From Streptomyces rapamycinicus NRRL 5491 (GTDB lineage: Bacteria > Actinomycetota > Actinomycetes > Streptomycetales > Streptomycetaceae), in contig NZ_CP085193.1 of assembly GCF_024298965.1 (NCBI RefSeq), positions 9,238,001 through 9,302,000 on the forward strand: a stretch of 64,000 bases of DNA, read 5' to 3'. A model generated the notes under the pieces. It did not search any database, had not been told where the DNA came from, and saw nothing but the letters and a program-made list of their open reading frames with translations. Below, piece by piece: positions 21,877 through 64,000 of this stretch. Positions within the stretch are counted from its first letter, which is position 1. Each line of letters starts with the position of its first letter. The translations under genes and the position numbers were made by a program.

Positions 21877-22077
21877 ACTATCGGTCCATGTCGACTGCGT
21901 GGTACCTGGTGCCGCGTGTCGGTGATCGACGGACTCGCCGGGCCCCGATCGGCCGTGCCCATCCCGGCTGATGGAACGACCATCGTGAAATGACCACTGG
22001 CAGCTACCCTGGCGTGGTGCGCCGTCCCCAGGGGAGGGCGCAAAGCCGACAGCCGTCGCACTCCAGGGAGCACATCC

Positions 22078-25581
<3,504 letters not shown>

Positions 25582-58897: not shown

Positions 58898-60046
58898 GTG
58901 GCCAAATTGCGAGCCGAGCACCTGTACAAGGTGTTCGGCAGACGACCCGATGAGGCGGTGGCGCAGCTGGAAGGCGGCGCGGACCGCGAGGAGCTCCGAG
59001 CGAACGGTACGACCGCAGCGGTCATCGATGCCTCCTTCGCCGTCGAGGCGGGCCAGATCTTCGTCGTCATGGGTCTGTCCGGGTCCGGCAAGTCCACCCT
59101 GCTGCGGATGCTGAACGGGCTGCTGGAGCCGACCGCGGGGCGCGTGCTCTTCGACGACGACGACCTGACCGCGCTCACCCCCAGGGGTCTGCGCGAGGTC
59201 CGGTCCCGCAAGATCAGCATGGTCTTCCAGCACTTCGCCCTCTTCCCGCACCGCAGCGTCCTGGAGAACGCCGCCTACGGCCTCGAGGTGCAGGCCGTGC
59301 CGCGCGAGGAGCGCATCCGGCGCGCCACCGAGGCGCTGGAGCTGGTGGGCCTGGCCGGCTGGGAGAAGTCCTGGCCCGACGAGCTCTCCGGCGGTATGCA
59401 GCAGCGCGTCGGCCTCGCCCGGGCCCTGGCCACCGACGCCGACATGCTGCTGATGGACGAGTCCTTCAGCGCGCTGGACCCGCTGATCCGCCGCGATATG
59501 CAGGATCAGCTGCTCCAGCTCCAGAAGCGGCTCAAGAAGACCATCGTCTTCATCACCCACGACCTGAACGAGGCCATGCGGCTCGGCGACCACATCGCCG
59601 TGATGCGCGACGGCCAGATCGTCCAGATCGGCACCGCCGAGGACATCCTGGTCACCCCCGCCAACGACTACGTCGCCTCCTTCACCCAGGACGTGGACCG
59701 CAGCCGGGTGCTCACCGCCGGCGCGATCATGTCCGAGCCGGACGAGGTGCTGGGCACCAAGACCGACGACGGCACCACGCTCCGCACCGCGGAGGACGTG
59801 CTGGCCGCCGCGCCCGCCACCGTCACCGAGGGAACCCCGATCATCGAGCTGTTCCAGCCCTGCTCGCGCAGCGGCGTCGCGGTCGCCGTGATCGGCGACG
59901 ACGGCGCGCTCACCGGCGTCGTCACCCGCGCCCGGCTGCTCGCCGCCCTCGGCGAGCCGGACGGCGGGCCCGACGGGGCCCAGCCGCCGTCCGGTGGCTC
60001 TCCGGACGCGCCCGAGACCACCAAGAAGGTGATCACCGGTGCCTAG
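58898..60046 (+). CDS. Glycine betaine/L-proline ABC transporter ATP-binding protein
   Basis: 382 residues from GTG with GAGAGG upstream. QAT-family ATPase (ProV/OpuAA): [16 protein letters not shown] with the family N terminus, GLSGSGKST (Walker A), [15 protein letters not shown] (signature), [27 protein letters not shown] (Walker B), ITHD (switch His). A C-terminal CBS-like region with [14 protein letters not shown] (about residues 285-360), which in OpuA-type importers senses ionic strength or c-di-AMP. Overlaps the next gene by 8 bases. Confidence 0.93.
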
Positions 60047-62660
60047 GCTTCAGCTCGGCGACTGGATCAACTCCGGCGTCAACTGGCTCCGAGACAATCT
60101 GAGCTGGCTCTTCGACTTCATCTCCAGCGTCGTCCAGGGCATGTACGACGGGTTGAACACGGTGCTCAGCGGCCCCGAGCCGCTGCTGCTCGCGGGCATC
60201 CTGGCGCTGCTCGCCTGGTGGCTGCGCGGGCTGCTGCCCGCCGTGCTCGCCTTCCTGGGATTCGCCCTCATCGACTCGATCGAGTTGTGGGGCGAGGCGA
60301 TGAACACCCTCGCACTGGTGCTGGTCGCCGGTGTGATCACCATCGTGTTCGCGGTGCCGCTCGGCATCTGGGCCTCGCGCAACCGCGCGGTGAGCGCCGT
60401 GATCCGTCCGGTGCTGGACTTCATGCAGACGATGCCCGCCTTCGTCTACCTGATCCCCGGCATCTTCTTCTTCGGCCTCGGGGTGGTCCCCGGTGTCGTC
60501 GCCACCGTCATCTTCTCGATGCCTCCGGGCGTCCGCATGACGGAGCTGGGTATCCGGCAGGTGGATGCGGAGCTGGTCGAGGCGGCCGACGCCTTCGGCA
60601 CCCATCCGCGCCGCACCCTGATGCGCGTCCAGCTTCCGCTGGCCCTGCCCACCATCATGGCGGGCGTCAACCAGGTGATCATGCTGGCACTGTCCATGGT
60701 CGTCATCGCCGGTATGGTCGGCGCCGAGGGCCTGGGCTCCACCGTCTTCCAGGCGATCAGCTCCGTCGACGTCGCCATGGGCTTCGAGGGCGGCATCGCG
60801 GTGGTCATCCTGGCCATGTACCTGGACCGGATGACCAGCGCGCTCAATCAGCGCGTCTCCCCGCTGGCCCGCCGCGCGCTGGCCAAGGAGAAGGTCAAGG
60901 CGCTCAGCGGTCTGAAGGTGCTGCACTGGCGCCCCGCGACCTCCGTCGCCATGGTCGGCGTGGTCGTCCTGGCGCTGGTCGCCGGCGGCATGAGCATGTT
61001 CGGCAGCGACGACGAGGGCCCCAAGGTCTCCGCCAACGTCGGCAAGGGCCAGTCGGTCAACATCGGCTACATCAACTGGGACGAGGGCGTCGCTTCCACC
61101 TTCCTGTGGAAGGAACTCCTGGAGCAGCGCGGCTTCAAGCCCAAGGTGCAGTCGTACGACGTCGGCGCGCTGTACACCGGTATGGCCGCGGGCAACATCG
61201 ACTTCGAGACGGACTCCTGGCTGCCCACCACCCACGCCTCGTACTGGTCGAAGTACAAGAGCAAGCTGGAGAACCTCGGCTCCTGGTACGGCCCCACCTC
61301 CCTGGAGGTCGCGGTCCCCTCGTACGTCAAGGGTGTGAAGACCCTTGAGGACCTCGAGAAGAAGTCCAGCACCTTCAAGAAGAAGATCGTCGGCATCGAG
61401 CCCGGTGCCGGTGAGATGAAGCTGATGCAGGACAAGGTCATGCCGGGCTACGGGCTGAACAAGAACTTCAGCCTGGTCAAGGGCTCCACCGCGGCCATGC
61501 TCTCGCAGCTGGACCGCTCCTACTCCAAGAAGGAGCCGATCGCGGTCACCCTGTGGTCCCCGCACTGGGCGTACGACAAGTACAAGCTCACCAAGCTGAA
61601 GGACCCCAAGGGCGCCTTCGGCAAGGGCGACCGCATCGACTCCCTCGCGCGCAAGGGCTTCTCCAAGGAGAACCCGCAGGTCGCCAAGTGGATCAAGAAC
61701 TTCAAGCTGGACGAGAAGCAGCTCACCAGCCTGGAGTCGGCCATCCAGGACGCCGGTAAGGGCAAGGAGCAGCAGGGCGTGCGCGCCTGGCTGAAGCAGA
61801 ACCCGGGCATCGCCAACAAGCTCGCCCCGGTGCCCGGCGGCGCCGACCAGAAGGGCAAGGACGCGGGCGCCGCGCCGATGATCGGCTACTTCCCGTGGGA
61901 CGAGGACATCGCCACCACCTACCTGTGGAAGAACGTCCTCGAACGGCGTGGCTACAAGCCGGAGATCAAGCAGTACGACGTCGGCTCGATGTTCACCGGT
62001 ATGAGCACCGGACAGGTCGACGTCGAGTTCGACGGCTGGCTACCGGTCGCCCAGAAGCAGTACTGGGACAGATACAAGAAGAACCTGGTCGACGTCGGGT
62101 CGTGGTACGACAAGACCTCTCTGGAGATCGCGGTGCCGTCCTACGTCAAGGACGTGAAGTCGCTCGCCGACCTCAAGGGGAAGTCCGGCACCTTCGACGG
62201 CAAGATCGTCGGTATCGAACCCGGGACCGGTGAGATGAAGCTCCTGAAGGGCAAGGTGCTCAAGGAGTACGGCCTGGACAAGGAGTACAAGGTCAGTGAC
62301 GGCTCCTCGCCGGCGATGCTGGCCGAGCTGGAGCGGTCGTACGCCAAGAAGGAGCCGGTGGCCGTGGTCCTGTGGACCCCGCACTGGGCCTACAGCAAGT
62401 ACAAGCTGACCAAGCTCGCCGACCCGAAGAAGGCGTTCGGGGCCAGCAACCAGCTCCACACTCTCGCCAACAAGTCCTTCCCGAAGAAGTTCCCCGAGTT
62501 CAACGGGTGGCTGAAGAAGTGGCACATGACCGAGAAGGAGCTGGCGAGCCTGGAGCAGGCCATCCAGGACGCCGGTAAGGGCAACGAGGAGAAGGGCGTC
62601 CAGAAGTGGATGGACGCCCACCCCGGCATCGTCGACAAGATGGCGCCGGTGGCTTCCTGA
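60039..62660 (+). CDS. Glycine betaine ABC permease fused to two tandem substrate-binding domains
   Basis: 873 residues from GTG, overlapping the ATPase stop. Residues about 1-300 are the permease (five to six helices, coupling loop EAADAFGTHPRRTLMRVQLP). After one further helix (SVAMVGVVVLALVAGGMSMFG) follow two OpuAC-type binding domains: about 335-605 (IGYINWDEGVAS, ETDSWLPTTH, SPHWAYDKYKL) and about 613-873 (IGYFPWDEDIAT, EFDGWLPVAQ, TPHWAYSKYKL). Both keep the tryptophans that make the betaine cage. The fusion means that each assembled importer would carry four binding domains. The two domains are about half identical by eye. Confidence 0.93.
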   Translation: MPRLQLGDWINSGVNWLRDNLSWLFDFISSVVQGMYDGLNTVLSGPEPLLLAGILALLAWWLRGLLPAVLAFLGFALIDSIELWGEAMNTLALVLVAGVITIVFAVPLGIWASRNRAVSAVIRPVLDFMQTMPAFVYLIPGIFFFGLGVVPGVVATVIFSMPPGVRMTELGIRQVDAELVEAADAFGTHPRRTLMRVQLPLALPTIMAGVNQVIMLALSMVVIAGMVGAEGLGSTVFQAISSVDVAMGFEGGIAVVILAMYLDRMTSALNQRVSPLARRALAKEKVKALSGLKVLHWRPATSVAMVGVVVLALVAGGMSMFGSDDEGPKVSANVGKGQSVNIGYINWDEGVASTFLWKELLEQRGFKPKVQSYDVGALYTGMAAGNIDFETDSWLPTTHASYWSKYKSKLENLGSWYGPTSLEVAVPSYVKGVKTLEDLEKKSSTFKKKIVGIEPGAGEMKLMQDKVMPGYGLNKNFSLVKGSTAAMLSQLDRSYSKKEPIAVTLWSPHWAYDKYKLTKLKDPKGAFGKGDRIDSLARKGFSKENPQVAKWIKNFKLDEKQLTSLESAIQDAGKGKEQQGVRAWLKQNPGIANKLAPVPGGADQKGKDAGAAPMIGYFPWDEDIATTYLWKNVLERRGYKPEIKQYDVGSMFTGMSTGQVDVEFDGWLPVAQKQYWDRYKKNLVDVGSWYDKTSLEIAVPSYVKDVKSLADLKGKSGTFDGKIVGIEPGTGEMKLLKGKVLKEYGLDKEYKVSDGSSPAMLAELERSYAKKEPVAVVLWTPHWAYSKYKLTKLADPKKAFGASNQLHTLANKSFPKKFPEFNGWLKKWHMTEKELASLEQAIQDAGKGNEEKGVQKWMDAHPGIVDKMAPVAS

Positions 62661-62680
62661 CCCACCGTCCGCACCACACA

Positions 62681-62716
62681 CACCGCGGCCCGGAGCGCAT
62701 GCTCCGGGCCGCGGTG
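62681..62716 (+). terminator. Terminator of the betaine operon
   Basis: Perfect 16-bp stem (CACCGCGGCCCGGAGC, loop GCAT) 21 bases after the stop codon. Confidence 0.8.
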
Positions 62717-62759
62717 CCGTGCTGTGCGGGCGGTGCCGCGCAGCGGGGCGGAAAACCGG

Positions 62760-62789
62760 ATGACGGCCTGGGAGGCGGCCCCCTACTGT
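62760..62789 (+). promoter_or_regulatory. Promoter of the Y RNA candidate
   Basis: ATGACG (62760-62765) and TACTGT (62784-62789) are separated by 18 bases; transcription would begin near 62796, just before the outer stem of the RNA candidate. Confidence 0.55.
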
Positions 62790-62801
62790 CGTATCCGTGA
62801 A

Positions 62802-62919
62802 CGCACCTCCCGGTGCGAAGACGACGGTTACTTCGGTCGATTTGGGTTCGATTCCTGAAACACTCCGCCCGGTGCGGGGTGGGAAACACACCGTCGTCGA
62901 CTGTGATCTCGGGAGGCGC
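62802..62919 (+). ncRNA. Candidate bacterial Y RNA (YrlA-like), partner of the Ro protein downstream
   Basis: About 118 bases with nested pairing. Outer stem CCTCCCG (62806-62812) with CGGGAGG (62910-62916), extended by CGC/GCG around one mismatch. The middle stem is GACGACGGT (62820-62828) with ACCGTCGTC (62890-62898). Inside them are a T-arm-like hairpin with 5-bp stem and 7-base loop TTCGATT (62842-62858) and an 8-bp hairpin CACTCCGC/GCGGGGTG (62861-62881). The 5' strand between the stems reads GGTGCGAAG, like the Ro-binding strand GGUCCGAAGG of Y RNAs. A promoter lies directly before it and the Ro60-like gene 145 bases after. Ends and exact folding are estimated by eye. Confidence 0.72.
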
Positions 62920-63064
62920 GCGCACGGCATCGGAGCGCCTGGTGCGCGGGCCGCGGTTACTTCCCTTCCAGAACGGTCCGCCGCCCACTCCTGACCTCAG
63001 GCGCTGCCGACGCACCGGCGCGCCGCCTCCTCCCAATGCCCACTCGGGGGAGAGGCATGACCGC

Positions 63065-64000
63065 ATGACCAAGTTCAACCGCGTCCTCCGGCGCACCAGG
63101 GCCACGACGACCACCTACGAGGGCGGCGCCGCCGTCACCCGCGACAGCAAGTCCGAACTGGTGCTGCTGGCCGTGGTGAACATGGCCGGCGAGCAGACCT
63201 TCTACGAGCCCTCCGGCGACCGCGACGACCGCTTCCGCACTCTCGTCCGCACCGTCGCCGTCGAGGACGCCGACTGGACCGCCCGTTTCATCGGCTGGCT
63301 GCGCGCCGAGGCCCTCATGCGCACCGCGGCGCTGGTCGCCGCGGCCGAGGCCGTCGCGGCACGTCTCGCGGCCGGGCTGCACGGCGGCAACCGTCCCATC
63401 GTCGCCGCCGCGTGTCTGCGCGCCGACGAGCCCGGTGAGTTCCTCGCCTACTGGACCGCCCACCACGGCCGCGCGCTGCCCAAGCCGGTCAAGCGCGGCC
63501 TCGCCGACGCCGTCCGCCGCCTCTACTCCGAGCGCTCGCTGCTCAAGTACGACACCGAGAGCCACGGCTTCCGCTTCGCCGACGTCCTGGAACTGGTGCA
63601 CGCCGCCCCGGACCCCGACAAGCCGTGGCAGAGCGAGCTGTTCCGGCACGCCATCGACCGCCGCCACCAGCGGGACGCCGCGCCCCCGGTCTCGCTGCGC
63701 ACCCTGCGCGCCCGCGCCCGGCTGACGGCCCTGCCGCAGTGGGAGCGCCGCGCCGTGCTGGAGCGGCCGGACGCCGCCGACGCGCTCCGTACGGCGGGCA
63801 TGACGTGGGAGGCGCTCGCGGGCTGGCTTCAGGGGCCGATGGACGCCCCGGCCTGGCAGGCCGTGCTGCCCTCCATGGGCTACATGGCGCTGCTGCGGAA
63901 TCTGCGCAACTTCGACCAGGCCGGGCTGCCGGACGCGGTCGCCGAACGGTTCGCGGCACGGCTGGCCGACCCGGCGGAGGTGGCCCGCTCCCGCCAGTTC
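63065..64000 (+). CDS. TROVE-domain RNA-binding protein, Ro60/Rsr orthologue, truncated by window edge
   Basis: 312 codons from ATG (GGGGGAGAGG upstream) without a stop. The N-terminal part matches the Ro60 HEAT-repeat ring: TTTYEGGAAVTRDSKSELVLLAVVNMAGEQTFYEPSGDRDDRF, the DWTARFIGWLRAEALMRTAALVAAAE segment, KPVKRGLADAVRRLYSERSLLKYD and LPSMGYMALLRNLRNFDQAGL. The C-terminal von Willebrand A domain with its metal site lies outside. Ro proteins bind Y RNAs and misfolded or 3'-ended RNAs for quality control and, in bacteria, work with polynucleotide phosphorylase. The RNA candidate just upstream is the expected partner. Confidence 0.93.
   Translation, partial: MTKFNRVLRRTRATTTTYEGGAAVTRDSKSELVLLAVVNMAGEQTFYEPSGDRDDRFRTLVRTVAVEDADWTARFIGWLRAEALMRTAALVAAAEAVAARLAAGLHGGNRPIVAAACLRADEPGEFLAYWTAHHGRALPKPVKRGLADAVRRLYSERSLLKYDTESHGFRFADVLELVHAAPDPDKPWQSELFRHAIDRRHQRDAAPPVSLRTLRARARLTALPQWERRAVLERPDAADALRTAGMTWEALAGWLQGPMDAPAWQAVLPSMGYMALLRNLRNFDQAGLPDAVAERFAARLADPAEVARSRQF

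Follow-up and report, generated by a model that had tools for sequence, protein, structure and literature searches.

Y RNAs are an already known kind of RNA, and several described systems offer points of comparison for the element that we study here. The closest of them, YrlA (RF02553; Salmonella, Mycobacterium smegmatis), is encoded beside an orthologue of Ro60, a protein of RNA quality control; on its foot stem sits a head made of a T-arm and a loop-closed acceptor helix, after which comes a D-arm. YrlB and other short Y RNAs are without the tRNA-like domain. Enzymes of the TruB type recognise a T-arm together with an acceptor-like helix. According to PMC7790460, the Y RNA genes of Salmonella sit with rtcBA, and the operon name rsr-yrlBA-rtcBA includes yrlB; YrlA is also described as a substrate of DusA and TruB, and the Y RNA of Deinococcus radiodurans as a tether that joins Ro to PNPase for the decay of structured RNA (RYPER; PMC4726728). 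Further background is given in PMC9569102, PMC8394870 and PMC8628891. A literature search on Y RNAs or TROVE in Streptomyces returned no paper among the matches listed; the 2014 survey of bacterial Y RNAs lies outside that search.

We analysed a stretch of 64,000 nucleotides of Streptomyces rapamycinicus (hereafter, the window), near whose end a first-pass annotation had placed a probable Y RNA beside a gene for a Ro60 orthologue. That proposal is well supported by a TROVE match in the neighbouring reading frame, by matches to a covariance model of related RNAs (R1), by covariation and by linkage to Ro, and every sequence element that the annotation named is present in its place. Like YrlA, the window RNA lies beside a Ro60 orthologue and has a foot stem, a T-arm and a loop-closed acceptor; YrlA has a D-arm after the acceptor helix, whereas the window RNA has GGAAAC instead. 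The tRNA mimic that had been proposed is therefore only half there, since its T-arm and acceptor are present but its D-arm is missing. Taking the evidence as a whole, we consider it very probable that this element is a Ro-bound Y RNA with half a tRNA at its effector end. What is new, as far as we know, is the half-tRNA form as the sole tRNA-like Ro ligand found in a genome, together with its graded relatives and the natural deletion. The features of the locus are collected in Table 1.

Table 1. Features of the Y RNA locus, in window coordinates.
Feature	Position	Strand	Basis
Possible promoter ATGACG-18-TACTGT	62760..62789	+	Conserved first box; no consensus match
Y RNA gene with half tRNA mimic (T-arm and acceptor hairpin, without D-arm)	62803..62919	+	R1 match; clade matches
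Presumed Ro-binding stem, 5' strand GCACCTCCCG	62803..62812	+	Pairs with 62910-62919, one A.C mismatch; invariant in 8/8 distinct clade rows
GGTGCGAAG, presumed Ro-binding internal loop, 5' side	62812..62820	+	Invariant in 8/8 clade rows
Second stem, 5' strand	62820..62828	+	Pairs with 62890-62898; family covariation (helix 2)
TACTTC motif after second stem	62829..62834	+	In nearly all printed family members, long and short; variants, e.g. TCCTTC
tRNA-like T-arm, stem TTTGGG/CCTGAA, loop TTCGATT	62841..62859	+	Clade and family conservation
Acceptor-stem equivalent, loop-closed, CACTCCGC-CCGGT-GCGGGGTG	62861..62881	+	Pairing in all cells
GGAAAC linker at D-arm place	62882..62887	+	Invariant in 8/8 distinct clade rows
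GATCTC and GGGAGGCGC, presumed Ro-binding stem, 3' side	62905..62919	+	Clade and family conservation
Short Y RNA gene, no tRNA mimic	62933..63006	+	R1, 53.5 bits, E 7e-11
Ro60/Rsr orthologue, 546 aa	63065..64000, past window end (L002:3066-4706)	+	TROVE matches

The protein encoded downstream matches the Pfam TROVE domain at 2.6e-12, with a VWA match below its cut-off, and it matches the TROVE chains 9l5y/9kop of the PDB at 2.4e-23. It is the sole TROVE match found in the 12.5-Mb window genome. Ro matches occur in 84 of 150 Streptomyces genomes, the window's own included; three others are close to it (81-91% identity) and most of the rest lie near 53-61%. Salmonella keeps its Y RNA genes with rtcBA, whereas the RtcB family match of the window genome is elsewhere, far from Ro. 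At G000:C1:5488052-5490558 a full RtcB match has two short RtcB fragments next to it, one of them with an in-frame stop.

The foot of the window RNA is formed by its paired ends, which make a 7-bp stem CCTCCCG/CGGGAGG (62806-62812 with 62910-62916), and by the strands GGUGCG/GAUCUC, which do not vary within the clade and are conserved across the family, and which we infer to be the Ro-binding site. Inside the foot stands a 9-bp stem GACGACGGT/ACCGTCGTC (62820-62828 with 62890-62898), and this in turn encloses the T-arm (62841-62846 with 62854-62859, loop 62847-62853; two of the six pairs of the G-U type) and an 8-bp hairpin CACTCCGC/GCGGGGTG (62861-62868 with 62874-62881). The string GG-TTCGATT-CC at 62845-62855 amounts to a T-arm with a tRNA-type T-loop, as in YrlA (RF02553). 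The region 62790-62930 folds at -65.3 kcal/mol (z -3.10), an energy that none of 200 shuffled sequences equals; the fold of 62802-62919 alone is less clear (z -2.33, equalled by 5 of 200 shuffles).

The T-arm named by the first-pass annotation is there, and it is conserved in both clade and family, but it is absent from the minimum-energy fold. That is, RNAfold omits it and draws a rival hairpin of TTCGGTCGA with TCGATTC..CTGAA. In the eight distinct clade sequences every T-arm cell is paired (100%), and two changes occur on one side only (G-U to A-U and U-A to U-G), whereas the inner helix of the rival is paired in 90.6% of cells, and three of its four pairs break in one clade sequence. The most divergent clade sequence does not support the rival, which we have rejected. 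The comparison of pairing within the clade gives the T-arm modest support, and stronger support comes from the conservation of T-loop and T-stem across the wider family, whose rows, as far as the T-loop is concerned, were themselves chosen by the T-loop pattern.

The hairpin that stands for the acceptor stem (62861-62881) is paired in 100% of cells in the same eight sequences, and two of its pairs show changes on both sides. The covariation of the stems, on which the first-pass annotation had proposed to rely, is slight within this close clade, since 57 of 500 shuffles reach the same count of two pairs, but it is very strong across the wider family.

To describe that family, we scanned 87 regions upstream of Ro matches in Streptomyces, seven partial or weak Ro matches being left out. 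The foot pattern (stem, GGTGCG ... GATCTC, stem) marks at least one RNA in 78 of these regions and two or three in 70, and the tRNA-type T-arm motif GGTTCRANNCY occurs at most 900 nt upstream of Ro in 75. A typical Streptomyces array holds two RNAs of about 140 nt, in which T-arm, loop-closed acceptor and D-arm follow one another, and a third of about 72 nt without these. The common full head corresponds to a circularly permuted tRNA whose opening lies at the anticodon and whose acceptor end is closed. Usually at least one RNA per array holds this permuted tRNA, and GGUGCG/GAUCUC is the foot common to the RNAs of the arrays. Similar arrays are found in Planotetraspora, Nonomuraea, Actinomadura, Kitasatospora, Nocardia, Micromonospora and others. 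Short members that have a T-arm, and whose D-arm is degenerate or missing, occur in other actinobacteria as well, usually next to a full one. At six loci (L009, L012, L019, L021, L024, L035) some of the mimics nearest to Ro have another type of D-arm, TGTGGCGGAACGG followed by A or C and then AGACGC, and a longer stretch precedes their T-arm, as though a different class of tRNA were being imitated.

We aligned 47 full mimics, chosen by hand for diversity from 172 candidates (84 + 88), with the window clade excluded (alignment A2; Streptomyces, Nonomuraea, Actinomadura, Kitasatospora, Nocardia). These RNAs share with the window RNA the Ro foot, TACTTC, the T-arm and the acceptor, and they differ from the window clade in having a D-arm. 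Because candidates were picked by foot complementarity, by a T-loop pattern that fixes the closing pair and by a D-arm pattern, the pairing of foot and D-arm is partly by construction. GGTGCG is invariant or nearly so in A2 and in alignment A4, and, like GATCTC-like motifs, it belonged to the search pattern that yielded the wider set; a TACTTC-like motif was required by the pattern for other actinobacteria, not by the Streptomyces foot pattern. The choice of rows did not depend on the second stem, the acceptor or the outer T-stem pairs. In A2, 98.0% of 1329 cells are paired, compared with 78.4% in shuffled versions, none of 500 being as high; 20 of 29 pairs show changes on both sides. The covariation score reaches 0.484, compared with 0.147 for shuffled versions and no more than 0.103 for slid ones. 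Because the D-arm pairs are constant in A2, they are uninformative by themselves.

R1 is the covariance model made from these 47 RNAs, with a short calibration and hence rough E-values. Within the 64-kb window it finds 62804-62918 (52.8 bits, E 1e-10) and, at the score given in Table 1, the short RNA; the third-best match has an E of only 0.27. By a count made by eye, 79 of the 80 named loci have a match at E 0.001 or better upstream of Ro (L150, which stands apart, has no upstream sequence), and 72 have a match of at least 60 bits. The eight loci that lack the latter are those of four window-clade species, Streptomyces sp. AJS327, two Catenulispora and L150. For 18 of the 80 loci the linkage to Ro is partly by construction, because they gave rows to R1. 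Six matches each occur at two Nocardia loci (L175, L186), and five at one of Catellatospora (L197); these large arrays extend across more than 1.4 kb upstream of Ro.

Twelve of the 87 scanned regions are without the motif GGTTCRANNCY. Ten of these fall in one run (L079-L089, with Ro 53-57% identical to the window's), and the other two (L026, L045) both contain a short RNA by R1. Nine of the ten in the run (L079-L086, L088) are Streptomyces Ro loci with only a short R1 match of about 80 nt; at L089, R1 gives no match even at E 10, and a similar element is visible by eye at -237.

The first-pass annotation likened the window RNA to YrlA. Membership is not borne out by the Rfam YrlA model (RF02553), which gives no match in the window at the gathering score and none in 62660-63070 even at E up to 10. 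At the gathering score, Rfam likewise gives no match in 20 Streptomyces loci, the window's own among them. Kinship fares better, although it runs through the relatives and not directly. Below threshold, YrlA matches the relatives' full RNAs 11 times, in six of seven loci (L205 has none), with a best match of 54.9 bits (E 6.4e-10) against the gathering score of 69; two printed alignments show the full heads covering the T-arm, acceptor and D-arm of RF02553; and the model of such relatives finds the window RNA. The family is therefore related to YrlA, with the window RNA one step further off. Since YrlA at its own threshold reported none of the actinobacterial loci on which it was run (20 Streptomyces; 7 loci), such RNAs may well stand unannotated.

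R1 is also matched by tandem tRNA genes, and these are false positives; an example is the tRNA-Asn pair at L214. A tally of 136 of 150 genomes is therefore not a measure of Y RNA prevalence, and one may ask whether the window RNA is itself the relic of a tRNA gene, or a tandem-tRNA artefact that resembles a permuted tRNA. The false matches cover only positions 33-115 or 31-115 of the model, whereas the window matches span the whole of R1, the Ro foot included; moreover, ARAGORN finds no tRNA within the 64-kb window, and Rfam gives no tRNA match there either. We regard this explanation as scarcely credible, and we retain the reading as a Ro-bound Y RNA. In the whole genome, matches at E <0.001 comprise the two Y RNAs and a tandem tRNA-Asn pair, which matches in the core only; next, at E 0.002, comes a tandem tRNA-Asp/tRNA-Phe pair, and no full mimic was found in this R1 search of the genome. 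Confusion in the other direction occurs as well. ARAGORN labels Y RNAs as tRNA-SeC, tRNA-Asp and tRNA-Asn at three of 30 loci (L019, L020 and L022), and therefore genome annotations may list some Y RNAs as odd tRNAs.

The start codon of Ro60 lies on the same strand, 145 bases downstream of the window RNA, and no terminator was found between the RNAs and Ro. This arrangement would also suit a cis-acting leader of the Ro mRNA, that is, a tRNA-like 5' region with a regulatory role instead of a free RNA. However, R1 finds two or more separate matches in the majority of the 80 named Ro loci; for 13 strong matches, fetched as distant from Ro, no Ro was found in the surrounding 7 kb; and S. endocoffeicus has an intact Ro without the element. 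A leader thus seems very unlikely to us, and a free Y RNA remains the preferred reading. The 13 distant loci (L222-L234, of 7 kb each, from other Streptomyces) have matches of 62-137 bits, and tblastn with two Ro proteins found no Ro in any of them. At L224 and L231 two RNAs stand immediately ahead of a reading frame with a PriA 3' DNA-binding domain; at L226 ARAGORN calls the match tRNA-Cys; and at L222, on a 191-kb contig of a window-clade species (G055), a reading frame of the RNA ligase family adjoins the match.

Eight full-length matches to the window RNA, its own included, are found in 392 Streptomyces genomes, and all are without the D-arm. When the window RNA is aligned with relatives that share the GCACCTCCCGGTGCG foot, GGAAAC stands where Nonomuraea and genome G244 have their D-arm. 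In the Ro tree, the window clade, genome G298 and S. sp. AJS327 form a group of 14 rows (SH-aLRT 96), in which two row pairs are identical, probably one genome in two collections; G244 is the sister of this group (87). The D-arm is missing in all 13 of the 14 rows that keep the RNA. In G298 the acceptor hairpin is missing as well. For S. endocoffeicus (Ro 93% identical), there is no match to the window RNA at the locus or in the whole draft genome, and the RNA is therefore dispensable there. By contrast with the group, G244 (Ro 71%) joins the same CCTCCC foot to a full head, D-arm included (106.4 bits with R1). Related Ro proteins thus go with a graded series: a full head in G244, T-arm and acceptor in the window clade and AJS327, the T-arm only in G298, and no RNA in S. 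endocoffeicus. Because D-arms are widespread in the family, the simpler reading of these sequences is that the D-arm was probably lost in the window branch, not gained in G244; exchange between members of an array may also lie behind the difference. A half mimic that arose by lineage-specific loss would let the purpose of tRNA imitation be tested, and a comparison of Ro partners across the graded strains would reveal directly what each part of the mimic recruits.

The short RNA at 62933-63006 had been overlooked by the first-pass annotation. It consists of a foot (AGCGCCT/AGGCGCT and GGTGCG/GACCTC), a second stem and TACTTC, and in its architecture it resembles YrlB and other short Y RNAs, which likewise have a Ro foot but lack a tRNA-like head. 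Over 11 sequences, 93.9% of its cells are paired, a level that none of 500 shuffles attains, and four of 15 pairs show changes on both sides, as in two of 500 shuffles; two of these four pairs lie in the second stem of G298, the most distant sequence. On the other side, the number of further pair types does not exceed that in shuffles, nine of the 11 sequences have a mismatch at one stem pair, and the folding energy is unremarkable (z -1.53, equalled by 13 of 200 shuffles). At the corresponding position G244 has an RNA of 112 nt (55.9 bits) whose T-arm is accompanied by an acceptor-like hairpin and by a further hairpin at the place of the D-arm, which suggests that the window clade may have lost the mimic from its short RNA too.

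The losses just described could mean that the Y RNA is decaying, in other words that the tRNA mimic is being lost in the clade and that the T-arm left behind is functionless. Decay would account for the D-arm missing in all 13 RNA-bearing rows, for the lack of the acceptor hairpin too in G298, for the absence of the whole gene from S. endocoffeicus, and for a neighbouring short RNA without a mimic while its G244 counterpart has a T-arm. It does not sit well with what has been kept: the core of the Ro foot, TACTTC and GGAAAC are invariant in all eight distinct clade rows, the T-loop shows one change, and the acceptor hairpin varies yet retains its pairing. We therefore think decay unlikely, and prefer a Ro-bound Y RNA whose half-tRNA head would still serve as its effector end.

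How might such an RNA work? Once transcribed, it would dock by its foot (the CCTCCCG stem and the GGUGCG/GAUCUC core) on the Ro60 orthologue encoded downstream. The head would be a reduced tRNA mimic, from which the D-arm has presumably been lost and of which a T-arm/acceptor 'minihelix' and the fixed GGAAAC linker remain. By analogy with the Deinococcus Y RNA, this head might tether or gate a partner such as PNPase, and so specialise that partner for structured RNA; the likeness to Deinococcus radiodurans lies in the proposed function, a link between Ro and a 3' exonuclease. The short RNA would act as a second Ro ligand without a tRNA-like head, and therefore two kinds of Ro particle would exist in the cell.

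The first-pass annotation had also suggested that the mimic could be a substrate for tRNA-modifying enzymes, and here the missing D-arm divides the suggestion in two. The end of the minihelix would still offer a T-arm and an acceptor-like helix, so that modification by TruB-type enzymes is plausible, but the D-loop substrate is gone, and modification by Dus-type enzymes is therefore unlikely. Matches to both the TruB and the Dus families are present in the window genome.

GGAAAC is invariant between variable stretches, and this pattern suggests that it has a role. One tentative and rather doubtful idea is that it is a minimal stand-in for the D-loop, in which both G would dock in the T-loop as G18 and G19 do in tRNA, making an elbow-like knot without a D-arm. 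If true, this would be the smallest natural tRNA mimic that still forms the effector end in a Ro particle; TruB-type enzymes would modify it and Dus-type ones would not, and it would stand in a genome in which the search turned up no full mimic.

As for the promoter that had been proposed just before the RNA, its letters are present but the case is weak, since a consensus scan of 62660-63070 found neither a sigma-70-type promoter nor a terminator. In the four clade loci compared, GGATGACGG is kept, and at 17-18 nt, as measured by eye, follows a second box that reads TACTGT, TACTGT, TAGGGT and TACCGT.

Upstream of the locus, a single reading frame of 873 aa (60039-62660, + strand) joins a glycine-betaine ABC permease domain to two OpuAC binding domains. 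Right after it stands a long G+C-rich palindrome (62680-62717), perhaps its terminator, though without a T-run; this palindrome causes spurious Rfam matches to microRNAs. At the gathering score, the only Rfam match in the 64-kb window is to an unrelated element, the Streptomyces-metH RNA (RF03076), at 21959-22080 on the + strand (101.2 bits).
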